Shown here: one piece after another, positions 51,107 to 64,000 of the stretch
How positions within the stretch are numbered: the stretch's first letter is position 1
How the letters are laid out: every line of letters begins with the position of its first letter
Assembly: GCF_003576245.1 (NCBI RefSeq)
Contig: NZ_QWGA01000003.1
Span: forward strand, 620,001 to 684,000
Origin: Henriciella algicola
Lineage (GTDB): Bacteria > Pseudomonadota > Alphaproteobacteria > Caulobacterales > Hyphomonadaceae
Length of the DNA: 64,000 bases
Direction: 5' to 3'
The notes under the pieces: model-generated
What the model was told of the DNA's origin: nothing
Database searches by the model: none
The model's input: the letters and a program-made list of their open reading frames with translations, nothing else
Position numbers and translations under genes: made by a program

Positions 51107-51856
51107 ATGGCAGACCTCGCAAGCAGGCTATTCGATTTTACCGGCAAGACGGTCCTGGTGACGGGCGGCAGCCGTGGGCTTGGCTACCAGATGGTGAAAG
51201 CCTTTGCTGAGCAGGGCGCCGATACGATCATCGTCAGCCGCAAGCTCGACGCCTGCGAAGAAGTTGCCGAAGAGGTCCGCAGTCTCGGACGCAAGGCTCT
51301 GGCCCTGAGCGCCCATTGCGGCAAGTGGGAAGAGATCGACCCAATGATCGACAAGGCCTATGACGCCTTTGGCAAGATCGACATCCTCATCAACAATGCG
51401 GGCATGAGCCCGCGCGTGCCGAGCCACGAGGTCGAGGAAAGTCTGTTCGACAGCGTGCTGAACCTCAACTTCAAGGGCCCCTTCCGGATCGGCGCGAAGA
51501 TCGGCAAGCGCATGGCCGACGGTGATGGCGGATCAATCATCAACATCTCCTCGACCGGCGCGCTCATGCCTCTTCCGCAGGTCGTTCCCTATAGCGGCGC
51601 GAAGGCCGCGCTGAACGCGATGACGGTCTCCTTTGCCCGCGAGTACGGGCCGAAAGTGCGCGTGAATACGATTTCTGCCGGCCCGTTCCTGACCGACATT
51701 TCGAAGGCGTGGCCCGAAGAGATGCGCCAGTCTGCTGACAATGCGCTCGGACGCCCCGGCAAGCCCGAAGAGATCGTCACCGCCGCGCTCTGCCTCGCAA
51801 GCGATGCATCGAGCTTTACGACGGGGACGATCCTGCGCGTCGACGGCGGCAGCTAG
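51107..51856 (+). CDS. Short-chain dehydrogenase/reductase
   Basis: The product is 249 aa from ATG 51107 with GGAGA upstream. Classical SDR features are present: the cofactor motif TGGSRGLGYQM, the structural NNAGMSPR, the catalytic Ser in NISSTGAL and YSGAK (Tyr-x3-Lys), and the C-terminal TTGTILRVDGGS. The basic residue after the strand (VSRK) favours NADP(H). It is an oxidoreductase of unknown substrate. It is divergent from the metalloprotease across 146 nt and followed after 79 nt by the transporter gene. Confidence 0.92.
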   Translation: MADLASRLFDFTGKTVLVTGGSRGLGYQMVKAFAEQGADTIIVSRKLDACEEVAEEVRSLGRKALALSAHCGKWEEIDPMIDKAYDAFGKIDILINNAGMSPRVPSHEVEESLFDSVLNLNFKGPFRIGAKIGKRMADGDGGSIINISSTGALMPLPQVVPYSGAKAALNAMTVSFAREYGPKVRVNTISAGPFLTDISKAWPEEMRQSADNALGRPGKPEEIVTAALCLASDASSFTTGTILRVDGGS

Positions 51857-51935
51857 GACAGGCGGGCACTCCAGCCATATCGACAAATCAGGCTGCTCCG
51901 TGCAGGCTCTGCCCCATGACGCTGCGGGGCACGAC

Positions 51936-53147
51936 ATGAAACTATCCTTCGGGCCTGGCGCACTTGTCGCCGCCGCCTTTATCGGGCCGGGCACGGTCAC
52001 TGCCTGCACCGTTGCCGGGGCGAGTTTCGGGCATGCGCTCGTCTGGGCGCTGGTCTTTGCGACGCTTGCGACCATTGTGCTGCAGGACATGGCGGCGCGG
52101 CTTGGCGCAGGCGCGCGGCGCGGTCTCGGCGAAGCGCTGATGGCCAGCGTCAGCGGCCCCATCGGCAAGGCGGGCGCAGCGGTTCTGGTCCTGCTCGCGA
52201 TTGGCGTCGGCAATGCGGCCTATGAAGGCGGCAACCTCGCAGGCGGTGTCATGGGGCTGGAAGCGCTGCTTGGTGAGGGCACGCGGCGGCTTCTGGTGGC
52301 AGGTCTCGCCATCATCGCGGCAGGCGTGTTGCTGATCGGTGCCTACAAGCCCATCGAGCGTATCCTGATCGGGCTCGTCCTCGTGATGAGCCTCGCCTTC
52401 ATCATCTCGGCCATTCTCGTGCGACCGGACCTTTCGACTTTTGCAGCGGGCCTTGTGCCATCGATACCGGACGGCGCGCAGCTCACAGCCGTTGCGCTGA
52501 TCGGCACGACGATCGTGCCCTACAACCTTTTCCTGCACGCGGCGGCGGCGCGAAACCACTGGACCGATGCCAGCAAGCTCAGCGAGGCGCGGCGCGACTC
52601 TGCCATTTCCATCGGGCTCGGCGGGCTTGTCTCCATCCTGATCCTGTCGACAGCAGCGGGTAGCCTGTTCGTGGCGGGCATGGAGGTCAGCAATGCGCGC
52701 GACATGGCGATCGCGCTGGAACCGGCTTTCGGTCCGACGGCGCGCTATCTCGTTGGCATCGGCCTCTTCGCAGCTGGCCTCACCTCAGCCATCACAGCCC
52801 CGATGGCGACCGCCTATGCCATCACCGAGATGTTTCCGGCCAAATCGGAAAGCGGACAAACCGGACGCTTCCGCGCGATCGCCCTGACCATTGTCGCCAT
52901 CGGCGCGGCTATCTCACTGCTTGGTATCGATGCGGTTTCCCTGATTGTGACTGCGCAGGCAGCCAATGGACTGCTCCTGCCAATCATCGCGGTATTTCTT
53001 CTCTATGTGATGAACCGCAAGGCTCTGCTCGGCGATAGCGTGAACGGGCTCGCGGCCAACATTGCGGGCGGGCTGGTCATCCTGATCACGCTGATGATCG
53101 GCCTTCGCGGCATCTGGAGAGCACTCAGCACGGTGCTTGGCGCATGA
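51936..53147 (+). CDS. Divergent NRAMP-family transporter
   Basis: The product is 403 aa from ATG 51936. It has about 11 hydrophobic segments and the NRAMP opening GPGTVTACTVAGASFG, but the canonical DPGN metal-binding motif of helix 1 is missing. The helix 6 MPH motif is replaced by VPY (194-196, GTTIVPYNLFLH). These are key metal ligands in true Mn/Fe transporters, so transition-metal transport is doubtful. The stop overlaps the start of the 5-oxoprolinase by 4 nt. In Bacillus an NRAMP-like gene (ycsG) also lies with 5-oxoprolinase genes. Import of 5-oxoproline or a counter-ion is therefore a reasonable hypothesis. Confidence 0.85.
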   Translation: MKLSFGPGALVAAAFIGPGTVTACTVAGASFGHALVWALVFATLATIVLQDMAARLGAGARRGLGEALMASVSGPIGKAGAAVLVLLAIGVGNAAYEGGNLAGGVMGLEALLGEGTRRLLVAGLAIIAAGVLLIGAYKPIERILIGLVLVMSLAFIISAILVRPDLSTFAAGLVPSIPDGAQLTAVALIGTTIVPYNLFLHAAAARNHWTDASKLSEARRDSAISIGLGGLVSILILSTAAGSLFVAGMEVSNARDMAIALEPAFGPTARYLVGIGLFAAGLTSAITAPMATAYAITEMFPAKSESGQTGRFRAIALTIVAIGAAISLLGIDAVSLIVTAQAANGLLLPIIAVFLLYVMNRKALLGDSVNGLAANIAGGLVILITLMIGLRGIWRALSTVLGA

Positions 53148-56100
53148 GTGGCTGGCAGTTCTGGATTGATCGGGGCGGCACGTTCACCGACATCGTCGCT
53201 CGCACACCCCAGGGACGCTATGAGCTTCTGAAGCTCCTCAGTGAAAATCCCGGCGCCTATGAGGACGCCGCCATTGAGGGCATCCGGCGGTCGCTCAATG
53301 CGCCGGAAGGACGGCCACTCCCCTTCCACGAAATCGATCAGGTCCGCATGGGCACGACCGTTGCCACCAATGCGCTGCTGGAGCGGAAAGGCGCGCCGAC
53401 CCTCTTCGTCGTGAATGAGGGGTTCGGCGACCTGCTGATCATCGGGCGCCAGTCGAGACCGCGTCTGTTTGACCTCGATATCCAGCGCCCCGCCCCGCTC
53501 AATGACGACGTCCTCGAAATCGGCGCTCGCATCGATCTTGATGGCGACTTCCTGCAGCCGCTGGATGAAAAAGCCGTTGCGAAAGCCCTGTCAGAGGCGC
53601 GCCAGCGCGGCCTCGAGACTTGCGCAATTTCTCTGCTTCACGCATGGAAACACCTAGAACTTGAGCAGCAGGTGGGCGCACTCGCCCGGCAGGCCGGGTT
53701 CGAGACGGTGACGCTCAGCCATGAAGCCGACCCGCTGGCGGGCTATGTCGCGCGCTCTGCCACCGCCGTGGCTGACGCTTACCTCACCCCGGTCCTGCAA
53801 CGCTATGTAGATCAGGTGGCAAGCCGTCTTGGCGACGCATCGCTTCATTTCATGCAGTCTAATGGAGGCCTGATGGAAGCGAGCCGCTTCCGGGGGCGCG
53901 ATGCGGTCCTGTCAGGTCCCGCTGGCGGCGTCGTTGGCGCGGCAAAGACCGCAGCCGCGCTAGGTCATGACCGGATCATCGGCTTCGATATGGGCGGCAC
54001 ATCAACCGATATCTCTGTCTATGATGGGCAGTTTGAGCGCGTCACCGAAACCGAAGTTGCCGGTGCGCCGCTCCGCGTGCCCATGATGGACATTCATACC
54101 GTTGCCGCAGGCGGCGGATCGGTCCTTCGCTTTGATCAGGGCCAGCTGCAGGCAGGTCCGCAAAGCGCAGGCGCAAATCCTGGCCCTGCTGCCTACAGGC
54201 GGGGTGGCCCGCTGACCGTCACCGATGCAAACATCCTGCTTGGCCGGATCCAGCCAAGCGCCTTTCCGCCCGTCTTCGGGCCGGAGCAGGATCAGCCGCT
54301 CGAGCTTGATGCGGTGCGCACCGGCTTCGATCAGATGGCGCGGGAAGTTGAGGCAGAAACAGGGCTCGCCCGATCCCCGGAAGAGCTTGCAGCCGGTTTC
54401 CTGCAGATCGCGGTCGCAAACATGGCTCGCGCGATCCGTAAGGTGACGCTGGAAAAAGGCCGCGACCCAGCCGACTTTGCGCTGCAGGCTTTCGGCGGCG
54501 CTGGCGGCCAGCATGCCTGTCTCGTTGCGGATGAACTCGACATACAGACCGTCATTATCCACCCCCTGGCAGGCGTCCTGTCAGCGCTTGGCATCGGCCT
54601 TTCAGATGAAATCGATATTGCCCGGGCCTCCGTCGAAGAAACGCTCAATGACCAGTCGCTCGAGCGCGCCCACACGCGGATCGAAGGCCTGAAGGGCCAG
54701 CAGCGCGAAAGACTTGGCGCTGGCGAACTTTTTTGGACCGTCAGTGCGGCAATCCGCTATGCCGGGACCGATACGAGCCTGCCTGTAGAGTTTGGCGACC
54801 TGGCCTCAATGCGAGAGGCATTCGAGACGCTTCACGAAGCGCGTTTCGGCTTCAGGACCGCTGGGCGCGAAATGGTCCTCGAATCCCTCACCTGCGAAGC
54901 GCGCCGCCCGGCTCCCGCGTTTGAGAAGGCGCCGCCAGAAGCGAGTAGCGCACCCGGCGAGCAGAAAACGGTCAAGCTCTGGAGCCGCGGCGAGGAGGTC
55001 GATGCGCCTATGATTGCGCGTGCCGCCCTGTCACCCGGCAGGGAGATCGAAGGCCCCGCCCTCATCACAGAAGAAACCGGCACGACCGTCATCGACGCCG
55101 GCTGGTCGGCACGCGTCGCGCCCGGCGGCGAAATCATCATGAAGCGGAGTGGCGCCGCAAGGCGAGAGCTGGTCCAGGCCACCGACACACCAGACCCGGT
55201 GCTCCTGTCGCTGTTCAACAACATGTTCATGGCAATCGCAGAGCGGATGGGCGCGGTGCTGCGCGACACAGCGACCAGCGTGAACATCAAGGAGCGGCTG
55301 GACTTCTCATGCGCCGTCTTTGACGAGCAGGGCCGCCTCCTCGCCAATGCGCCTCATATGCCGGTTCACCTGGGCGCGATGGGCGAAAGCGTCCGAACCG
55401 TCCTCAAAAGCCGCGGGGCGAGCCTGAAGCCCGGCGACATGATCTGCCTCAACAATCCGTTCAACGGCGGCACGCACCTGCCAGACATTACCGTCATCGC
55501 GCCAGTGTTCGACAAGGACGGAAAGGACATTCGCTTCTTTGTCGCCAATCGCGGACATCACGCTGACATTGGCGGGCTGACCCCCGGGTCGACTCCGGCG
55601 CGCGCCACGAAACTGGAAGAGGAAGGCGTCGTCATCGACGATTTCCTACTGCTCAGCGAAGGCGAGTTTCGCGAAGATGCCCTGCGCCAGATGCTCAGCG
55701 ATGCGCTATGGCCTGCCCGCAAACCGGATCAGAACGTCGCCGACCTCCGCGCACAGATGGCCGCAAATATCGCTGGCGCGAAGGACCTGCTCGCCATGAT
55801 CGATCGGTATGGCCGCAAAGGCGTCACCTCCTATGCAGGCCACGTCCTCGACAATGCCGAAGAGAGCGTGCGCCGGGTTATCGACCGGCTGAGCGATGGC
55901 GAGATGCAGATCACGATGGATGATGGCCTGCCGCTCTGCGTCTCGATCAAGGTCGACAGAGAGGCCCGGTCAGCGACAATCGATTTCACTGGCACGGGCC
56001 CACAGCGTCCCGGCAATTTCAACGCCCCGCCCGTGGTATGCCGCTCTGCTGTGCTCTACGCGTTCCGCTGCCTTGTGGCAGATGAATTGCCGCTCAATGA

Positions 56101-56728
56101 GGGCTGCATGCGCCCCCTGGAGCTGGTGATACCGGAAGGGTCTTTCCTGTCTCCGTCGCATGGCGCGGCCGTCGTGGCAGGTAATACGGAAGTCAGCCAG
56201 GCGGTCTGCAATGTATTGTTCGGCGCCATGGGCGTCAGCGCGGCAGCGCAAGGCACGATGAACAATCTGCTCTTCGGCAATGATGACTACCAATACTACG
56301 AAACGATCTGCGGCGGCAGCGGCGCAGGACCGGGCTTCAACGGCACGTCCGGCGTACACACGCACATGACAAATACCCGCATCACCGATCCTGAAATCAT
56401 GGAGATGACCTACCCGCTGCGTCTTGAGCGCTTCTCATTGCGTCGCGGCTCCGGCGGAAATGGCGAACATCGCGGCGGAGACGGCGTCGTACGCACCATC
56501 CGCGCGCTGTCCGAGACAGTCTGCACGCTCGTCTCTTCGTCGCGCCAGACCGCACCTTTCGGCCTCGAAGGGGGCGGGGATGCAAGTTGCGGACGTCAAT
56601 GGATCGTGCGGGCTGATGGCCGCCGCGACACGATTGAAGGCATCGTCACACAAGACATGCAAGCTGGCGACACGATCACGATCGAGACTCCAGGCGGCGG
56701 CGGCTATGGCCGCCTCAAGCAGAATTGA
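53144..56728 (+). CDS. Fused hydantoinase A/B, 5-oxoprolinase
   Basis: The product is 1194 aa. The N-terminal half (about 1-680) is HyuA-like: [31 protein letters not shown], the ATPase-fold [14 protein letters not shown]. The C-terminal half (about 690-1190) is HyuB-like: [37 protein letters not shown], and glycine-rich ends ([28 protein letters not shown]). The fused arrangement and length match ATP-dependent 5-oxoprolinase of the eukaryotic OPLAH type, which converts 5-oxo-L-proline to glutamate. An ATP-dependent hydantoinase is the alternative. It is coupled to the NRAMP-like transporter by a 4-nt overlap. Confidence 0.9.
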
Positions 56729-56916: not shown

Positions 56917-57372
56917 ATGGCAGAACTCAAGGTCAACGGGCAAACCGTAAGCGTCGACGCAGAAGAGAACACACCGCTTCTCTGGGTGCTGCGTGAACAT
57001 CTGGGGCTGACGGGCGCAAAATATGGATGCGGCATCGCCCAATGCGGCACGTGCACGATCCACATTGATGGCCAGCCTGTCCGCTCCTGTACCTACCCGG
57101 TCGGCGCGCTCTCGGGCGAAGAGGAAATCACCACGATTGAGGGCCTGTCCGAAGATGGCAGCCACCCTGTGCAGCAGGCATGGGTCGAACTCGACATTCC
57201 TCAATGCGGTTACTGCCAGCCCGGCATGATCATGGCGGTCGCAGGCCTCCTGAACAACACGCCGGACCCAACCGATGAGGACATCGACGCGCAGGTCACG
57301 AATATCTGCCGCTGCGGGACGCTCGCACGGGTGCGCAAAGGCATCCACCTCGCCAAGACGAAAAAAGCCTGA
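56917..57372 (+). CDS. 2Fe-2S subunit of molybdenum hydroxylase (IorA-like)
   Basis: The product is 151 aa from ATG 56917 with GAGAGGAGG upstream. It has the plant-type 2Fe-2S cluster cysteines C38, C43, C46 and C58 (CGIAQCGTC...C) and the second 2Fe-2S cluster C97, C100, C131 and C133 (CGYCQPG...CRC). This is the small electron-transfer subunit of xanthine-oxidase-family enzymes, closest in form to isoquinoline 1-oxidoreductase alpha. It lacks a signal peptide, so it is probably exported with its TAT partner. It is 14 nt before the large subunit. Confidence 0.94.
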
Positions 57373-57386
57373 GGGAGGGCTGACAC

Positions 57387-59591
57387 ATGGCTGATACGAT
57401 CAAGCTCTCACGCCGCAATTTCATTATCGGCACCGGCGCTGCCGGTCTGACCATCGGTATTCTGGCTTCGTGTTCGAACAATAGTGAGGATGGCACCGAA
57501 GCAGACCAGGCCGCAAATGCCGAACCAAACCCCGAAGTGAATGCCTGGGTGCACATCGCCCCCGATGATACGGTCACGATCCGTATTGCCCGCTCTGAAA
57601 TGGGTCAGGGCACGCTGACTGGTCTCGCCCAGCTGGTCGCCGACGAACTCGACTGCGACTGGGACAAGGTCACCACCGAATATCCGACGCCCGGCGAGAA
57701 CCTTGCCCGTGACCGCGTCTGGCGCGACTTCTCCACGGGCGGCTCACGCGGCATTCGTGGCAGCGTGGAATACGTCCGCGAGGGCGGCGCCGTTGCGCGT
57801 GCCATGCTCATCCAGGCCGCCGCGAACCAGTGGGAAGTCCCCGTCAGCGAATGTTCTGTCGAGAAGGGTGTCATCACGCATGGGCCGAGCGGCAATACGC
57901 TGCGCTATGGCGAAGTGGCAGAGGCCGCCAGCGCCCTGACGCCGCCAACTGGTGTGCAAGTGAAGGACCCGTCCGAGTGGAAGATCATCGGCCAGCCGGT
58001 CAAACGCCTCGATACGGCCGACAAGGTCACCGGCGCCCAGAAGTATGGCGCTGACCTCCAGATGGACGGCATGCTGAATGCCGCCATCAAACAGGCCCCG
58101 AAGCGCGGCGGCACGCTCGCTTCCTTTGATGCCGATGCCGTCATGTCGATGCCGGGCGTGCGCAAGGTCGTACAGGTCGACGATACCGCCGTGGCCGTTG
58201 TCGCCGACAGGTGGTGGCAAGCGAAGACCGCGCTCGACGCCCTCCCCGTCGAATGGACGGACGGCGAAGGCGCTGACTATTCAAGCGCCGCCTTTGAAAC
58301 CGAGCTTGAAAACGCGCTAACCGCAGACGACGCGTCCGTCGCCAATATGAGCGGCGAAGTCGACGCAGCGTTCGCCAACGCAGCCCAGACGGTCGAAGCG
58401 ACCTATCGCGTCCCGCATCAGAACCATGCCTGCATGGAGCCGATGAACGCCACGGCGATCTGGACCGAGGACAAGTGCGAAGTCTGGTGCCCGACACAGA
58501 ATGGTGAGGCCGCGCTCGGTGCCGCCTCTGAAGCGGCTGGCCTGCCGATTGAGCAGTGTGACGTCTACAAGCTCCTGCTCGGTGGCGGTTTCGGCCGGCG
58601 CGGCATGAGCGACTATGTCAGCCAGGTCGTGAAGATCGCCAAGGAGATGCCTGGCACGCCGATCAAGCTTCTCTGGACGCGCGAAGAAGACATGCAGCAT
58701 GGCTTCTACCACCCGACCACGCGGGCACGTTGCGAAGGCGCGCTGGACGCCGATGGCAATCTCACCGCCATCAAGATCCGCATCGCGGGCCAGTCCATTC
58801 TGGCTGGTCTGATGCCACAGGCACTTCAGAATGGGATGGACCCGTTTGCTTTCCAGGGCCTCCTGCCAAGTGGCCTCGATGAGCGTGTCGAGGACCAGAC
58901 GCTGAAATACACCTTCCCGGCCCTCAAGTTCGACCACGCCATGCGTAATCCGCCTGTGCGTCCGGGCTTCTGGCGCGGCGTGAACGCGAACCAGAACGCG
59001 GTCTACCTGGAATGCTTCATGGACGAGCTTGCCCATGCAGCCGGAAAGGACCCGCTGGAGTTCCGCCTCGCCTATATGGGTGACGCGCCTGAGCTGGCCG
59101 CCGTCCTGCGCGCTGCAGCGGAAGGGTCTGGCTGGGGCAATGATGACGGCAAGTCGCGTGGCCTATGCGCCTTCTACTCGTTCGGCGCCTATACCGCCGC
59201 ATGCGCCGAAGTGACGGTGGACGATGCGGGCCAGCTGAAGATCCACCGCATCGTTGCCGCGACCGACCCGGGCTACGCCGTCAATCCACAGCAGGTCGAT
59301 GCGCAGGTCGCTGGCTCCTTCGTCTATGGTCTCTCGGCTGCTCTCTTCGAGGAGATCACCTTCGAAAATGGTGAGGTGCAGGAGCGCAACTTCGACACCT
59401 ATAACTCCATGCGACTGCGGGACATGCCGGAAGTCGAGACGATCGTCATGCCATCGGGCGGGTTCTGGGGCGGTGTCGGTGAGCCGACCATTGCCGTGGC
59501 CGCGCCAGCCGTGCTGAACGCAATCTATGCAGCCACCGGCAAGCGGATCCGCAACCTGCCGATCAAGGATCAGAGCCTGAGGGACGCGTGA
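57387..59591 (+). CDS. TAT-exported molybdenum hydroxylase large subunit (IorB-like)
   Basis: The product is 734 aa. The twin-arginine signal SRRNFIIGTGAAGLTIGILASCSN also has a lipobox-like LASC, so it may be membrane-anchored. Cofactor and active-site parts of the xanthine oxidase family are present: GQGTLTGLAQLVADEL, HQNHACMEPMNATAIW, LLLGGGFGRRG, RPGFWRGVNANQNA and catalytic Glu699 in WGGVGEPT. There is no FAD subunit gene, so electrons must go to a cytochrome, likely the lipoprotein cytochrome c encoded next with GTGA overlap. The substrate may be an aldehyde or N-heterocycle; it cannot be told. Confidence 0.92.
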   Translation: MADTIKLSRRNFIIGTGAAGLTIGILASCSNNSEDGTEADQAANAEPNPEVNAWVHIAPDDTVTIRIARSEMGQGTLTGLAQLVADELDCDWDKVTTEYPTPGENLARDRVWRDFSTGGSRGIRGSVEYVREGGAVARAMLIQAAANQWEVPVSECSVEKGVITHGPSGNTLRYGEVAEAASALTPPTGVQVKDPSEWKIIGQPVKRLDTADKVTGAQKYGADLQMDGMLNAAIKQAPKRGGTLASFDADAVMSMPGVRKVVQVDDTAVAVVADRWWQAKTALDALPVEWTDGEGADYSSAAFETELENALTADDASVANMSGEVDAAFANAAQTVEATYRVPHQNHACMEPMNATAIWTEDKCEVWCPTQNGEAALGAASEAAGLPIEQCDVYKLLLGGGFGRRGMSDYVSQVVKIAKEMPGTPIKLLWTREEDMQHGFYHPTTRARCEGALDADGNLTAIKIRIAGQSILAGLMPQALQNGMDPFAFQGLLPSGLDERVEDQTLKYTFPALKFDHAMRNPPVRPGFWRGVNANQNAVYLECFMDELAHAAGKDPLEFRLAYMGDAPELAAVLRAAAEGSGWGNDDGKSRGLCAFYSFGAYTAACAEVTVDDAGQLKIHRIVAATDPGYAVNPQQVDAQVAGSFVYGLSAALFEEITFENGEVQERNFDTYNSMRLRDMPEVETIVMPSGGFWGGVGEPTIAVAAPAVLNAIYAATGKRIRNLPIKDQSLRDA

Positions 59592-59956
59592 GCCCGAAAG
59601 CTCTGAAATCAATCTCCATCGCCGCCACCAGTGCGGCGATGACCTTTACTTTCGCCGGATGCAGCGCTGGGGACACCAAAGCTGAAACGCCAGCAGAGGC
59701 GGCTGAGACCTCTTTAGCCAATGGCGACATGTTGAGAGGCCAGACACTCGCCCTCACCTGCTCTGGCTGCCATGGCGGCGCTGGCGATGACATCCCGGAC
59801 TATAATGCTCTCGACCGCGCGACGCTTGAGGCACGCCTCCTCGCCTACAAGTCCGAAAGCGGCGGCACGACAGTCATGCATCGTCTGATGCGCGGCTATG
59901 GCGAGGCCGACATTGCCGCGGTCGCTGCCTATCTGACTGCGCCGGAGGAGGGGTGA
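59588..59956 (+). CDS. Lipoprotein cytochrome c (SoxE/FccA-like)
   Basis: The product is 122 aa, starting at GTG 59588 within the stop of the preceding gene. It has a lipoprotein signal with Cys25 in FAGC, a short Ala/Glu-rich linker and one class I cytochrome domain with C58-x2-C61-H62 (CSGCHG) and a Met candidate (HRLMRGYGEADIAAVAAYL). Position directly before the FCSD flavoprotein fits the heme subunit of flavocytochrome c; position directly after the Mo hydroxylase fits its electron acceptor. It may serve both. Only one heme is present. Confidence 0.85.
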   Translation: MSPKALKSISIAATSAAMTFTFAGCSAGDTKAETPAEAAETSLANGDMLRGQTLALTCSGCHGGAGDDIPDYNALDRATLEARLLAYKSESGGTTVMHRLMRGYGEADIAAVAAYLTAPEEG

Positions 59957-61230
59957 TGGCCTGGTCCCCAAAACGACGAGATGTGCTTGCTGGTCTTGCA
60001 GGAACAGCGTCACTACCGCTTCTCGGCTCCCCAGCAATTGCGCAGGCCCAACCAAAGATCGTGATCGTCGGCGGCGGCTTTGGCGGGGCAGCCGCCGCGC
60101 GCTTTGTGAAGACCTATGTGCCCGGTGCCTCAGTCACGCTGATCGAGCCGCAGGCGCACTACACTGCCTGCCCGTTCAGCAACCTCGTCATCGCAGGGCT
60201 TCGCAGTCTGGAGGCGCAGCAGTTTGGCTATGACGGCCTCAAGGCCATCGGCATCAAGGTCATTGGCGACAGGGCGGATGATGTGGACGCACCGGCCCGG
60301 ACGGTCACACTCAGCTCCGGCGACACGCTTTCCTATGACAAGCTGATCCTTTCGCCCGGCATCGACATTCGCTGGGGCGCGCTTGAAGGCTATGACGAAG
60401 CGGCGGCGAGCATCATGCCGCATGCCTGGAAGGCAGGCCCGCAAACCTCGCTCCTCCGCGAGCAGTTGGAAGCCATGCCCGATGGCGGCACGGTCATCAT
60501 GTCCGTTCCGACCGCGCCGTATCGTTGCCCACCCGGCCCCTATGAGCGCGCCAGCCTGATCGCCCATTACCTCAAGACGCAGAAGCCAGCCTCGAAGCTC
60601 ATCATTCTCGACGCCAAGGATGAGTTTTCCAAACAGCCACTCTTCCTTGAGGCATGGGCCGAACACTACCCGGATCACCTTGAATGGATTGGTGCGAGCG
60701 ACTTCGGGCGCGTCATATCGGTCGACCCGGGCGCCATGACGCTTTCGACCGATTTCGACACCTATGACGCCGATGTCGCCAATGTCATTCCACCGCAAAA
60801 GGCAGGTGAGATTGCCGCGCGCGCTGGCGTTGCGGACCAGACGGGCTGGTGCCCGATCAACCCGGTCGACTTCTCTTCCACGCTGCAGCCGGACGTTTAT
60901 GTGATCGGGGACGCGACCATCGCCGCGCCAATGCCGAAATCAGCCTTCTCAGCCAATCTGCAAGCCAAGCTTTGCGCGCTGCAGATTGCGCGGGAACTGA
61001 AGGGCGAAGCGCTCGCGCCAACCATCCTCGCCAACACCTGCTATTCCTATGTCACGCCGGGTGCGGCCGTCTCGATCACGGGCGTCTACAGCAATGAAGG
61101 CGGACAGCTTTCCAGCATCGAGGGCTCTGGCGGCCTCAGCCCGGCCGGCCCGGCGTCCAGCGTCCGCGCTGCAGAAGCTGCCGAAGCCGAAGCCTGGTTC
61201 CAGCAGATCACGCAGCAGACCTTTGGATGA
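59956..61230 (+). CDS. Flavocytochrome c sulfide dehydrogenase flavoprotein (SoxF/FccB)
   Basis: The product is 424 aa from ATG 59956 (GTG 59953 is possible), with GGAGGAG upstream. The TAT-like signal (KRRDVLAGLAGTASLPLL) is followed by FAD binding GGGFGGAAAARF (39-50), CPFSNLVIAG, the redox cysteines C191 (CPPGPYERA) and C362 (CYSYVTPG), and VIGDATIAAPMPKSA. These are the hallmarks of FccB/SoxF, which oxidises sulfide or protein persulfide in the periplasm and passes electrons to cytochrome c. It overlaps soxX by 4 nt. Confidence 0.92.
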   Translation: MAWSPKRRDVLAGLAGTASLPLLGSPAIAQAQPKIVIVGGGFGGAAAARFVKTYVPGASVTLIEPQAHYTACPFSNLVIAGLRSLEAQQFGYDGLKAIGIKVIGDRADDVDAPARTVTLSSGDTLSYDKLILSPGIDIRWGALEGYDEAAASIMPHAWKAGPQTSLLREQLEAMPDGGTVIMSVPTAPYRCPPGPYERASLIAHYLKTQKPASKLIILDAKDEFSKQPLFLEAWAEHYPDHLEWIGASDFGRVISVDPGAMTLSTDFDTYDADVANVIPPQKAGEIAARAGVADQTGWCPINPVDFSSTLQPDVYVIGDATIAAPMPKSAFSANLQAKLCALQIARELKGEALAPTILANTCYSYVTPGAAVSITGVYSNEGGQLSSIEGSGGLSPAGPASSVRAAEAAEAEAWFQQITQQTFG

Positions 61231-61685
61231 GACCGGCGCTTCCTGTCCTCACGATAGCGCTCCTCGCTGGATGCAGCGGCGAAACGACGTCGCGGCTCGC
61301 AACAGCCGTCGAGATAACAGGTGACGAGATCACGGCCCCACTTCTCGGCCTGCAAGGCGACGCGGCGCGCGGCGAAGCTGCGTTCGCAGAACGTGAGCAA
61401 GGCCACTGCGTGCTCTGCCACGCCGTCGAAGGTCTGGACGCTGAATTCCAGGGCAATGTCGGCCCCGCGCTCACCGGCGTTGGCGCCCGGCTGAGCGAGG
61501 GCCAGATCAGGCTTCGTATCGCCGACATCCAGCCCCTCTGGCCAGATACGCTGATGCCATCATATTATCGAACAGGCGGGCTGAACCAGGTCGCCCCGGC
61601 CTACGCGGGTGAGCCTGCACTTTCGGCCCAACAGATCGAGGACCTCGTTGCCTACCTCGGACAACTCGACGGTGAAAGCACATGA
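61227..61685 (+). CDS. soxX: Sulfur oxidation cytochrome c SoxX
   Basis: The product is 152 aa. The lipoprotein signal has Cys16 in LLAGCSG. The SoxX heme site is C61-x2-C64-H65 (GHCVLCHAVEG), followed by FQGNVGPALTGVGARLSEGQIRLRI and the Met ligand region TLMPSYYRTGGLNQV, characteristic of SoxX. In Sox systems SoxX pairs with SoxA to form the thiol-conjugating SoxXA. ATGA overlaps link it to both neighbours. Confidence 0.92.
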   Translation: MRPALPVLTIALLAGCSGETTSRLATAVEITGDEITAPLLGLQGDAARGEAAFAEREQGHCVLCHAVEGLDAEFQGNVGPALTGVGARLSEGQIRLRIADIQPLWPDTLMPSYYRTGGLNQVAPAYAGEPALSAQQIEDLVAYLGQLDGEST

Positions 61686-62152
61686 AGACCCCTAGCAGAC
61701 ACACAGCCCTCGCGAGGCGCAGCTTCCTCCAGCTTGGCGCCGCAGGTATCGCTGCAGCAGCGCTCCCTCTCCAGGCCGCCGCCGACGCAGCAGACGCAGA
61801 TGCGGCCATCCGCGAAATCTTCGGCGACAAGCCGCTCAATGAAGGGCGCGTGAGCGTGAAGCTTCCGCCGATCGCCGAAAATGGAAACTCCGTCGCCATT
61901 ACCGTGGCAGCAGAGAGCCTCATGTCACCTGACGATTATGTCCGCCGCATCGCGATCTTTTCGCCTCGCAACCCGATCGCCGAGGTCGCCTTGTTCAAGC
62001 TCGGCCCACGCGCAGGCAAGGCAGAGATTTCCACCCGCATCCGCATGGCTGGGACGCAGCGCATTCGCGCCGTCGCCGAGATGAGCGACGGCACTCTCTG
62101 GCATGGCTCAGCAAGCACGGTGGTCACGCTGGCTGCCTGCCTGATCGGATAG
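61682..62152 (+). CDS. soxY: Sulfur carrier protein SoxY, atypical C-terminus
   Basis: The product is 156 aa. The TAT signal (ARRSFLQLGAAGIAAAALPLQAAA) fits SoxY. The SoxY domain has VKLPPIAENGNSVAITVAAESLM, RIAIFSPRNPIAEVALFKLGPRAGKAEISTRIRMAGTQ and VVAEMSDG-like sequence. The carrier cysteine is present at position 153 but the tail is AACLIG, not the flexible GGCGG of well-studied SoxY. A bulkier swinging arm may change partners. It is expected to form SoxYZ with the next gene product. Confidence 0.9.
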   Translation: MKTPSRHTALARRSFLQLGAAGIAAAALPLQAAADAADADAAIREIFGDKPLNEGRVSVKLPPIAENGNSVAITVAAESLMSPDDYVRRIAIFSPRNPIAEVALFKLGPRAGKAEISTRIRMAGTQRIRAVAEMSDGTLWHGSASTVVTLAACLIG

Positions 62153-62163
62153 GAGAGCAACCC

Positions 62164-62484
62164 ATGGCGACCATACGTATAGCGGCCCCCGACACGGCGA
62201 GCGCTGGCGAAGTCATCGAACTGAAAGCGCTGATCCAGCATCCGATGGAAACAGGCTACCGTAGCGGCCCCGACGGGAAACGGATCGAGCGCGACATCAT
62301 CGAGAAATTCGAAGTCACCTATGACGGCGAAACCGTATTCGAGGCAGACCTCCAGCCCGGCATCGCCGCCAACCCGATCTTCACCTTCTACACCCGCGCG
62401 ACCGCCTCTGGCCCGATTGTCTTCAAGTGGACAGACCAGGACGGCGAAAGCTGGTCAGAGACGCACGACCTTACCGTGGAATGA
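62164..62484 (+). CDS. soxZ: Sulfur carrier partner SoxZ
   Basis: The product is 106 aa with no signal peptide, as expected for export with SoxY. The beta-sandwich SoxZ pattern is clear: ELKALIQHPMETGYRSGPDGKRI, FEVTYDGETVFEADLQPGIAANPIFTFYTRA, KWTDQDGESWSE. GGAGAG upstream gives its own ribosome site. It overlaps soxA by 4 nt. Confidence 0.94.
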   Translation: MATIRIAAPDTASAGEVIELKALIQHPMETGYRSGPDGKRIERDIIEKFEVTYDGETVFEADLQPGIAANPIFTFYTRATASGPIVFKWTDQDGESWSETHDLTVE

Positions 62485-63269
62485 AGGCGGGGCTCGCACT
62501 CCTTTCGGCGTTTTGCCTGACTGCGTGCGGAGATGTCGTGGCCGATACTAAATCGCCCCCGGCACAGCCTCAGCCCCTGCAATCTGGGTATGAATTCCTG
62601 CAGCCGCAGACGCAGGCCTTGCAGGATGATGACTTTGCCAATCCGGGCTTTCTCTGGATCGACCGGGGCGAGGCCCTGTTCTCTACAGCTACCGCTTCTG
62701 GCAGCGCATGCAGCGAGTGCCACACTGATGCGTCGCTGCCGCTCGCGGGCGCTGCCGCCCACTACCCCAAGATTGACGCCGAAAGCGGCGACCTCATCAA
62801 TCTGGAGGGGCGAATAAACCTCTGCCGGACGCGCCATCAGAACGAAGCGGCCTTCGAATATGAGAGCGATGAGCTTCTCTCGCTGACGGCCTATGTCGCT
62901 TACCTCTCGCGCGGCACGCCCATTTCTGTCGATATCGAAGGTGCCGCGGCAGACTGGTACGCCCGTGGACGCGACTATTTCGAAACACGGCGCGGCCAGT
63001 TCAATCTCTCCTGCACCCAGTGCCATGACGACAATTGGGGAAAGAAACTGCGCGGCGATACGATTAGCCAAGGCCACGGGACGGGATTTCCGGCCTACCG
63101 GCTTGAATGGCAGTCGCTCGGCTCGCTCCACCGGCGCCTGCGCGATTGCGATGCAGGTGTACGGGCAGAACCGCGCCCCTATGGATCGGACGATTATCTT
63201 GCCGTCGAACTCTATCTCGCAAAGCGCGCCGAAGGCCTTGAAATCGAAACGCCGGGGGTTCGTCGATGA
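62481..63269 (+). CDS. soxA: Diheme cytochrome SoxA
   Basis: The product is 262 aa from ATG 62481, overlapping soxZ by ATGA. It has a lipoprotein signal (Cys16, LTACGD), an N-terminal heme site C77-x2-C80-H81, a second heme site C178-x2-C181-H182, Cys115 in NLCRTRHQN and the active-site Cys223 in LRDCDAGVRAEP. This is a two-heme SoxA with the cysteine that carries the persulfide ligand intact, so SoxXA chemistry (oxidative joining of a sulfur compound to SoxY) should be possible. It overlaps the ModE-like gene by 4 nt. Confidence 0.93.
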   Translation: MKAGLALLSAFCLTACGDVVADTKSPPAQPQPLQSGYEFLQPQTQALQDDDFANPGFLWIDRGEALFSTATASGSACSECHTDASLPLAGAAAHYPKIDAESGDLINLEGRINLCRTRHQNEAAFEYESDELLSLTAYVAYLSRGTPISVDIEGAAADWYARGRDYFETRRGQFNLSCTQCHDDNWGKKLRGDTISQGHGTGFPAYRLEWQSLGSLHRRLRDCDAGVRAEPRPYGSDDYLAVELYLAKRAEGLEIETPGVRR

Positions 63270-63610
63270 ACGGGAAAGCAAAGCTTAGCGTGCGGATTGA
63301 CCTGCCCAATGGCGGGCGCTTTGGCCCAGGTAAGGCGACCCTCCTGCGCGCCATCGCAGAGCATGGCTCCATACGCAAAGCCGCAGCCGCATTGGCCATG
63401 TCCTATCCGCGCGCGCTCAAGCTGATTGATGAGATGAATGGCGACTTCGCCGCGCCGCTTATCGCGTCCACCCATGGCGGCGCCAGCGGTGGTGGCTCCG
63501 AGCTCACGCGAATGGGCGAAAACGTGCTGGCGCTCTATGCAGAGATAACTGACGCCGCCAGCACCGCCTCATCTGCAGCCATAGGCAAGCTTTGCAGCCT
63601 GCAGGAATAG
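63266..63610 (+). CDS. ModE-like/LysR-type winged-helix DNA-binding protein
   Basis: The product is 114 aa. It matches the N-terminal DNA-binding domain of ModE: LSVRIDLPNGGRFGPGKATLLRAIAEHGSIRKAAAALAMSYPRALKLIDEMN, then LTRMGENVLALYAEI. The C-terminal molybdate-binding MOP domains of full ModE are missing, as in many short ModE-like proteins. Its place in an operon with molybdenum enzymes suggests it controls this operon, perhaps through the inverted repeat just downstream. ATGA overlap with soxA. Confidence 0.88.
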   Translation: MNGKAKLSVRIDLPNGGRFGPGKATLLRAIAEHGSIRKAAAALAMSYPRALKLIDEMNGDFAAPLIASTHGGASGGGSELTRMGENVLALYAEITDAASTASSAAIGKLCSLQE

Positions 63611-63624
63611 AAGTCTGCTGGCAT

Positions 63625-63648
63625 CGTTCTAAATGATGGTTTAGAACG
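63625..63648. promoter_or_regulatory. Inverted repeat upstream of xdhC-like gene
   Basis: CGTTCTAAA (63625-63633) and TTTAGAACG (63640-63648) are a perfect 9-bp inverted repeat with a 6-nt spacer, between the ModE-like gene and the XdhC-like start at 63664. No T-run follows, so it is more likely an operator than a terminator. Confidence 0.45.
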
Positions 63649-63663
63649 GCGGGTATCGTGACG

Positions 63664-64000
63664 ATGCAACAAACCTATCCAGAACACCCCGAAGACGTGC
63701 TCAGTCAATGGCTGGACTGGCACGAGGCGGGTCCTGTGGCGCTCGTTATTGTCACCGGGATCGAGGGCGGCGCGGTGCGCGCACCGGGCGCCCTGATGGC
63801 GGTCCGCGAAGACGGCGCCATGGCGGGCTACATCTCTGGCGGCTGTATCGACTCCGACGTCGCCCTGCAGGCGCAGAACGCGTTGCGCGCCGGTAAGGCC
63901 AAACAGCTCCGCTATGGCGCAGGCTCTCCCTTCACAGACCTTCCCCTGCCCTGCGGCGGAGCGATCGAGGTCATCATCATTCCGGATGCGGACCGGAATG
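63664..64000 (+). CDS. XdhC/CoxI-family molybdenum cofactor maturation protein, partial
   Basis: 112 residues are visible before the window ends; the start is ATG 63664 or GTG 63658. The XdhC N-terminal domain is clear: GPVALVIVTGIEGGAVRAPGALMAV, GYISGGCIDSDVALQA and LPCGGAIEVII. XdhC proteins bind the molybdenum cofactor and help insert the sulfurated form into xanthine-oxidase-family enzymes, which fits the Mo hydroxylase genes at 56917-59591. The missing C-terminal part should hold the NAD-binding-like fold. An inverted repeat lies upstream. Confidence 0.9.
   Translation, partial: MQQTYPEHPEDVLSQWLDWHEAGPVALVIVTGIEGGAVRAPGALMAVREDGAMAGYISGGCIDSDVALQAQNALRAGKAKQLRYGAGSPFTDLPLPCGGAIEVIIIPDADRN

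Follow-up and report, generated by a model that had tools for sequence, protein, structure and literature searches.

A periplasmic molybdenum hydroxylase encoded with SoxXA and an atypical SoxYZ carrier in Henriciella algicola and other Proteobacteria

Introduction

In genomic and metagenomic work, soxX, soxY, soxZ and soxA are taken as signs of thiosulfate oxidation. In the known Sox system, SoxXA joins a sulfur compound to the cysteine of SoxY, and SoxCD and SoxB act on the resulting adduct (PMC5371076). SoxYZ-type carriers are also found adjoining carbon-oxidising dehydrogenases; those described under TIGR04557, or as SoxYZ-S2 and SoxYZ-S4 in a 2024 survey (PMC11237559), are fused SoxYZ proteins beside pyrroloquinoline quinone (PQQ) or XoxF enzymes, with SoxH nearby. 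Here we describe an operon of Henriciella algicola in which genes for a periplasmic molybdenum hydroxylase, IorAB, are followed by soxX, soxY, soxZ and soxA. It lies in a 64,000-nt stretch of contig NZ_QWGA01000003.1 (positions 620,001 to 684,000, assembly GCF_003576245.1), the whole of which is called the window below. Literature searches returned no paper on the iorAB-soxXYZA pairing among the matches listed. What is new here is the molybdenum hydroxylase counterpart of a known theme, namely the recruitment of SoxYZ carriers by other dehydrogenases; such a counterpart had been proposed in an earlier reading of this DNA made from the sequence alone, and it fits the present results well.

The module shares with canonical Sox a SoxX, SoxZ and SoxA that score over the NCBI cut-offs, a single carrier cysteine in SoxY, and the heme and cysteine motifs. 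It differs in having an xAC arm on SoxY instead of GGCGG, a molybdenum hydroxylase in the operon, and a genome without SoxB or SoxC. The best model for the window SoxY is TIGR04487 (SoxY-related AACIE arm protein), with which it shares a non-GGC arm bearing the carrier cysteine, although its own arm reads AACLIG rather than AACIE and its score of 170.2-170.6 bits falls just under the cut-off of 172. TIGR04487 is also the NCBI name of SoxY in operons of the same layout on plasmids of Methylobacterium sp. NMS14P and Neorhizobium galegae, which carry the annotators' own gene names. A literature search on 'AACIE' found nothing relevant. Like the quinoprotein-associated carriers, the window module places a SoxYZ-type carrier beside a carbon-oxidising dehydrogenase, but its SoxY and SoxZ are separate proteins (68.5 and 50.0 bits against TIGR04557, cut-off 140), its enzyme is a molybdenum hydroxylase, and SoxXA is present.

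IorAB resembles the aldehyde-oxidising periplasmic molybdenum hydroxylases in its two-subunit Mo/[2Fe-2S] make-up, its lack of an FAD subunit, its Tat-type signal and the adjoining cytochrome c. The window IorB belongs, however, to a separate clade found mostly beside Sox genes, and reaches no NCBI equivalog cut-off. The FCSD-like flavoprotein of the operon differs from other FCSD and SoxF proteins in sitting in a molybdenum hydroxylase operon and in its absence from roughly one in three linked loci.

Organization of the operon

Ten consecutive genes, from iorA to xdhC, lie on the + strand. Their order and domains were confirmed, as were the mostly 4-nt overlaps that the sequence-only reading had reported: such overlaps occur at 6 of the 9 junctions, and spacers of 14 nt (iorA-iorB), 11 nt (soxY-soxZ) and 47 nt (modE-xdhC) separate the rest. 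The genes, in window coordinates, are as follows.

56917..57372, + strand: iorA, [2Fe-2S] electron-transfer subunit of a xanthine-oxidase-family molybdenum hydroxylase (PF01799, PF00111)
57387..59591, + strand: iorB, molybdenum-binding subunit with a Tat-type signal (PF02738, PF20256)
59588..59956, + strand: small lipoprotein cytochrome c with a single CxxCH, an optional partner (PF00034)
59953..61230, + strand: FCSD or SoxF-like flavoprotein, an optional partner (PF21706, PF09242)
61227..61685, + strand: soxX, monoheme cytochrome, probable lipoprotein (TIGR04485, 76.7 bits against a cut-off of 61; CVLCH, MPSY)
61682..62152, + strand: soxY, xAC-arm type (scored against TIGR04487 and TIGR04488), sole cysteine Cys153 in LAACLIG
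62164..62484, + strand: soxZ (TIGR04490, 91.4 bits against a cut-off of 76)
62481..63269, + strand: soxA, diheme cytochrome, probable lipoprotein (TIGR04484, 227 bits against a cut-off of 110), conserved Cys223
63266..63610, + strand: ModE-type DNA-binding protein with no further domains, outside the conserved core (PF00126; TIGR00637, 65.3 bits, below the cut-off of 98.5)
63658..64000, continuing past the window, + strand: start of xdhC, an XdhC-MobA fusion and local neighbour (PF02625, PF13478, PF12804 in the whole gene)

The soxA start is most likely the ATG at 62481 rather than the longer GTG at 62427, since the former yields a lipoprotein signal and an ATGA overlap with the soxZ stop; Cys223 is numbered from this ATG. 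Judged by eye, Tat-type twin-arginine motifs are found in IorB, FCSD and SoxY, and lipoboxes in the small cytochrome, SoxX and SoxA. Signals are lacking in IorA and SoxZ, which would travel with IorB and SoxY, respectively.

Conservation of the pairing

The arrangement iorA-iorB-(cytochrome c)-(FCSD)-soxXYZA recurs across Alpha-, Beta- and Gammaproteobacteria. Named genomes were scanned with a 16-row alignment of IorB (A1); 591 relatives were confirmed, and the best 80 were kept. Among these best 80 of 591 loci, 65 have Sox genes in the fetched flank; they include Henriciella, Hyphomonas, Ancylobacter, Azospirillum, Skermanella, Duganella, Noviherbaspirillum and gammaproteobacterial metagenome-assembled genomes (MAGs), with Bradyrhizobium over-represented. 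Of the 15 loci without such linkage, several run into a contig edge. The sequence-only reading had named two findings that would refute it, soxB (and soxCD) nearby or elsewhere in the genome and a lack of the linkage in relatives; neither soxB nor soxC was found in this genome, and the linkage is conserved. Its recurrence in relatives rules out an accident of one genome.

Within the window's family, SoxY is present in 38 of 81 genomes and IorB in exactly the same 38, on one contig in 36 of the 38 pairs, and the presence and absence of the two vary together even within single genera. The strongest argument for a single functional unit is that the two are gained and lost together, and we consider it very probable that IorAB, SoxXA and SoxYZ form such a unit.

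The same association is seen across 385 genomes of the class, where IorB scores fall into two groups, at least 1186 bits and at most 935 bits. The first, higher-scoring type occurs in 31 genomes (whole in 29, split or partial in two), and SoxY is also encoded in 30 of these; the 17 weakest SoxY rows of the class list did not enter this comparison or the next. SoxY lies within 8 kb of 24 of the 32 first-type matches, the unlinked ones being partly contig breaks. The corresponding figures are 3 of 4 for IorB matches at 890-935 bits and 5 of 106 for weaker ones (500-772 bits; Fisher p 8e-19, uncorrected for kinship), the 106 being a lower bound, as at most two IorB candidates were scored in most genomes. 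A SoxY over the TIGR04487 cut-off is found in 20 class genomes, all with the first IorB type.

Whole copies of IorB in this clade are 57-82% identical to that of the window, versus 32-35% for two outgroup paralogs, from which a long branch divides them in the tree. The closest named relative is that of Henriciella mobilis (82% over 722 columns). Below, L and G numbers are our own labels for loci and genomes. In the IorB tree, from which a duplicate (L077, the same as L044) and pieces shorter than 600 aa were omitted, the sox-linked rows are not shown to be one clade: 12-13 label changes were counted against a shuffled mean of about 16-18, and unlinked rows are interspersed. Nor is this shown for the ior-linked SoxA proteins. 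In a midpoint-rooted tree with most Bradyrhizobium rows left out, SoxB-linked SoxA proteins make up a single clade (8 rows, SH-aLRT 99) nested among ior-linked ones. The SoxA of L055, an ior row with a more distant IorB, groups with other subtypes, and the L155 row is a remote match (28%).

Core and optional genes

The linked loci were collapsed by hand into 56 groups, and gene clusters were counted per group with antisense reading frames ignored. The clusters for iorA, iorB, soxX, soxY, soxZ and soxA cover 51-56 of the 56 groups, the FCSD cluster 30 and the small cytochrome 19; the next non-antisense clusters reach 12 groups, so that no neighbour naming a substrate is conserved beyond 12 of 56. 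FCSD and the small cytochrome being optional, the conserved core is iorA-iorB-soxX-soxY-soxZ-soxA. Across 92 linked loci (one of them a duplicate), soxXA stands alongside soxYZ in 89; soxA is missing in L089, L129 and L144, the last cut by its contig. An FCSD-like match falls within 9 kb in 62 of the 92 and is absent from 30.

The sequence-only reading had held that the ModE-like and XdhC genes tie the whole set to molybdenum. The tie stands by way of IorAB itself and not by way of these two genes, because ModE is local to close relatives (L052 and L074-L076 besides the window, with a separate block in L081) and XdhC-type genes also follow IorB without adjoining Sox genes (L083-L085, L093, L096 and Methylosinus). 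L083-L085, L093 and L096 are gammaproteobacterial loci whose IorAB, of the same clade, is followed by XdhC/MobA-type genes.

Catalytic motifs

The SoxXA, FCSD and molybdenum-enzyme motifs look intact. Window IorAB has two [2Fe-2S] domains, two MoCoBD domains and the GxGEP glutamate. IorA has 8 cysteines, kept in most relatives, and IorB has GGGFGR at 399-404 and Glu699 in GVGEP, presumably the catalytic residue as in others of the family. Every aligned relative has GVGEP or GIGEP, and every whole copy has GGGFGR; the L129 sequence, from a separate set, reads GSGFGR. The closest solved relative of IorB is 8gy3_C, an aldehyde dehydrogenase large subunit.

The heme motifs of SoxXA and the SoxA cysteine are present in the window proteins. 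Among aligned relatives, SoxX keeps CxxCH and MPx(Y/F), SoxA has two CxxCH in every row, and its conserved cysteine pattern is found in all but L055. Solved SoxAX (1h31 and 2c1d) is closest to SoxA and SoxX, and solved SoxY (4uwq and 2ox5) to SoxY. FCSD matches solved FCSD flavoproteins over its full length and has the conserved cysteines, Cys192 in RCPPGPYER and Cys363 in NTCYS, presumably the redox pair; its motifs are complete in most relatives, and one or more are missing in L033, L051, L053 and L063.

The SoxY arm

The SoxY of the module differs from the thiosulfate type: the single carrier cysteine is kept, and an xAC arm replaces GGCGG. Cys153 is the only cysteine of the window protein, which scores 107.5 bits against the true-SoxY model TIGR04488, below its cut-off of 125. 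In the window's family, 9 of 81 genomes pass the TIGR04487 cut-off. Arm type and gene neighbourhood were compared in 37 wide regions, 36 of them from the top of the TIGR04487 match list (not a random sample) and one the window's own. Both iorB and soxY are found in 25 of these regions, and the arm is xAC in all 25. The other 12 have GGCGG (8), GGCSV (1), or AAC or SAC (3: L049, L059 and L065); the genomes of these last three carry this IorB type on another contig. In L065 the separation is probably a contig break, as IorB and FCSD lie near the end of the other contig. SoxB over cut-off is encoded inside all eight GGCGG regions versus none of the 25 iorB regions.

Arms in the 91 readable of the 92 linked loci are AAC in 77, GAC in 6, PAC in 5, SAC in 3 and GGC in none; SoxY of L089 has the odd ending GAGACG. 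A SoxXAYZ cluster of Indioceanicola with no IorB within its 20 kb has the arm GGCGG. The 2024 survey of SoxY discarded sequences without the 'GGC' motif (PMC11237559), which places the xAC-arm group outside it. The xAC arm in place of GGCGG is the clearest clue to the module and was not part of the sequence-only reading, whose overall interpretation is partly supported.

Two further loci, on plasmids of Sinorhizobium meliloti (L184) and Rhizobium gallicum (L185), have the layout soxYZ-cytochrome c-FCSD; their arm is NGC, and neither SoxXA nor IorAB is clearly present alongside.

SoxB and SoxC

The absence of soxB and soxCD noted at the locus holds, as none is annotated among the genes in the 6 kb downstream. 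It extends to the whole source genome (3.2 Mb in 8 contigs, with a listed completeness of 100%), which gave no match to PF02872 or TIGR04486 for SoxB and none to PF00174 for the SoxC/sulfite-oxidase fold; SoxD was not searched for. This genome has a single SoxY by a TIGR04487 search, a model that also catches other SoxY types elsewhere. None of the 81 family genomes has a SoxB over cut-off. An ordinary truncated Sox system with SoxB elsewhere is consequently rejected for the source genome and, as regards SoxB, for the 81 genomes sampled from its family.

More widely, SoxB over cut-off was found at another locus in 4 of the first 25 iorB-linked genomes (G361, G122, G011 and G044), and in 6 of 19 named iorB-sox genomes, again at another locus each time; a twentieth named genome searched, that of L135, has no Sox genes beside its IorB and so falls outside the 19. 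The ior-linked SoxY is the sole PF13501 match in seven genomes: Henriciella, Hyphomonas, two Duganella, Belnapia, Bosea and Noviherbaspirillum.

Proposed function and alternatives

Enzymes of the xanthine-oxidase type hydroxylate carbon. Because the molybdenum enzyme belongs to this carbon-hydroxylating family and SoxB and SoxC are absent, an organic sulfur substrate seems most likely. On a tentative reading that we regard as possible though short of probable, SoxXA charges SoxYZ with a sulfur compound, an organic thiol being the likeliest, whose carbon is then oxidised on the carrier by the periplasmic molybdenum hydroxylase. The sequence comparisons establish the gene content, the motifs, the arm type, the lack of SoxB and SoxC in this genome and the common gain and loss of IorB and SoxY; we infer that the proteins act together, in what order, and on what class of substrate. 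In a first step, the cysteine-ligated heme of SoxXA would serve to join a reduced sulfur compound oxidatively to the single arm cysteine of SoxYZ; the likeliest candidates are organic thiols and sulfur-bearing aldehydes or heterocycles. The xAC arm would then present the adduct to IorB, not to SoxB or SoxCD, with SoxYZ handing the intermediate to the molybdenum enzyme, and the molybdenum centre of IorB would hydroxylate the bound carbon. Electrons would exit through IorA to a periplasmic cytochrome c, which both oxidation steps would feed. Finally, the oxidised carbon would be released, and FCSD, where encoded, may take the leftover sulfane or sulfide. The retention of SoxXA argues for a sulfur-linked substrate, since SoxXA conjugates sulfur in the known system (PMC5371076). 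The kinship of IorB to a solved aldehyde dehydrogenase and the conserved linkage, arm type and motifs described above also speak for the proposal.

Several points weigh against this proposal. In the same source, a recombinant Paracoccus Sox mixture lowered methyl mercaptan only slightly (PMC5371076), which counts against ordinary Sox proteins readily using small thiols. Across the 56 collapsed groups no thiol-related neighbour is conserved. Xanthine-oxidase-type enzymes usually attack sp2 carbon, which leaves fewer possible thiols. Some loci also break the pairing. L196:8308-11912 (G066) encodes iorAB-soxX-soxA with an intact-looking SoxX and SoxA and no soxYZ between, and its genome has no SoxY match. 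L129:4057-7048 encodes iorAB-soxYZ with no soxXA adjoining; this MAG, labelled Chitinophaga pinensis, is probably a mislabelled bin, given that its IorB groups with proteobacterial ones. Plasmids of S. meliloti and Methylosinus and a group of gammaproteobacterial loci have the first-type (type-I) IorB with no Sox genes nearby; the unlinked named loci that have room for Sox genes yet lack them are mainly gammaproteobacterial. In G370 and G292 the first-type IorB is truly unlinked, and SoxYZ adjoins a second, different IorB.

A carbon unit may instead be what the carrier holds. In that case an aldehyde bound to the SoxY cysteine as a thiohemiacetal would be oxidised by IorB to a thioester, sulfur would not be the substrate, and the system would parallel, with molybdenum, the SoxYZ-like carriers found next to alcohol dehydrogenases of the PQQ and XoxF types. 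SoxYZ fusions adjoin alcohol and methanol dehydrogenases, and a role in carbon metabolism has been suggested for them (PMC11237559). The solved aldehyde dehydrogenase closest to IorB and an arm unlike the thiosulfate type point the same way, but this explanation gives no role to SoxXA, which is retained so consistently with SoxYZ (89 of 92), or to FCSD, and no SoxH-like hydrolase is conserved nearby. We consider it unlikely.

Inorganic sulfur is a quite unlikely substrate. SoxXYZA and FCSD would here oxidise sulfide or thiosulfate in part, while IorAB replaces SoxCD on SoxY-bound sulfur or is merely co-regulated. The scores of SoxX, SoxZ and SoxA above the thiosulfate-system cut-offs and the FCSD-like match in 62 of 92 linked loci agree with this, whereas the lack of SoxB or SoxC matches in the source genome, a SoxY under the true-SoxY cut-off and the 30 loci without FCSD do not. 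We know of no sulfur oxidation by this molybdenum family. Bradyrhizobium diazoefficiens has two soxY homologs, and only soxY1, of locus I, is needed for thiosulfate (PMC5748708), which would be a further point against inorganic sulfur if the ior-linked gene is soxY2. In strain SZCCT0449 there is a third SoxY, apparently of the fused type from its long reading frame. The soxY2 mutant of B. diazoefficiens reportedly behaved like the wild type, which bears on the ior-linked gene only if the two are the same.

It is very doubtful that SoxXA and SoxYZ maintain the enzyme by carrying sulfane sulfur to restore the sulfido ligand of the periplasmic IorB molybdenum centre. Enzymes of this family need such a ligand, and an accessory role would agree with the tight co-occurrence of one IorB type with SoxYZ and with the absence of conserved catabolic genes alongside. 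Against it, XdhC-type sulfuration is probably cytoplasmic, SoxY is missing within 8 kb of 101 of the 106 weaker IorB matches in the class, and FCSD has no obvious place.

Returning to organosulfur oxidation, the wider proposal, possible though short of probable, is a previously undescribed periplasmic route in which a molybdenum hydroxylase of the xanthine-oxidase family acts on a substrate that SoxYZ holds covalently. The route may be common among heterotrophic Proteobacteria, including many that lack SoxB, and may have recruited more than one IorB subfamily. If the mechanism is correct, it would be a novel means of oxidising sulfur-attached carbon while the substrate is bound to a protein. 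Since a coherent sox group goes with a molybdenum hydroxylase, often without SoxB, thiosulfate oxidation may have been wrongly assigned to many heterotrophs on the strength of their sox genes. Named, cultured relatives with the pairing include Hyphomonas, Henriciella, Bradyrhizobium and Duganella.

Variant loci and neighbouring genes

Other arrangements of the same genes are found. No soxX was found in the iorAB-soxYZA loci L188 and L190, nor in L189, which has part of soxA. L188-L190 and L203 belong to other IorAB subfamilies (46-49% and 28% identity) with soxYZ and soxA adjoining, no soxX found, and the arm SGAC. These loci suggest that the IorAB-SoxYZ pairing is older or has arisen repeatedly. 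L191:2353-10388 and L192:3163-11166 read iorAB-soxYZ...cytochrome c-FCSD-soxX-soxA, and their SoxY arm cysteines (YGAC and FGAC) lie far from the C-terminus, with a long tail after them. The order is soxYZ-iorAB in L193 and L194, and in L203 a remote IorB lies beside SoxYZ.

Directly upstream of iorA, on the same strand at 51741-56728, the window encodes an NRAMP-type transporter and a fused 5-oxoprolinase (hydantoinase A/B). Their membership of the unit is unsupported, as the two window proteins are unmatched in the fetched flanks of L074-L076. On the other side, xdhC encodes a 499-aa XdhC-MobA fusion that would end at position 65157, beyond the window; moaA, moaE, moaC and moeA come next. 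In Henriciella mobilis (L074:5543-8298), a second, distant iorAB pair (IorB 32%) lies directly upstream of the Sox-linked pair.

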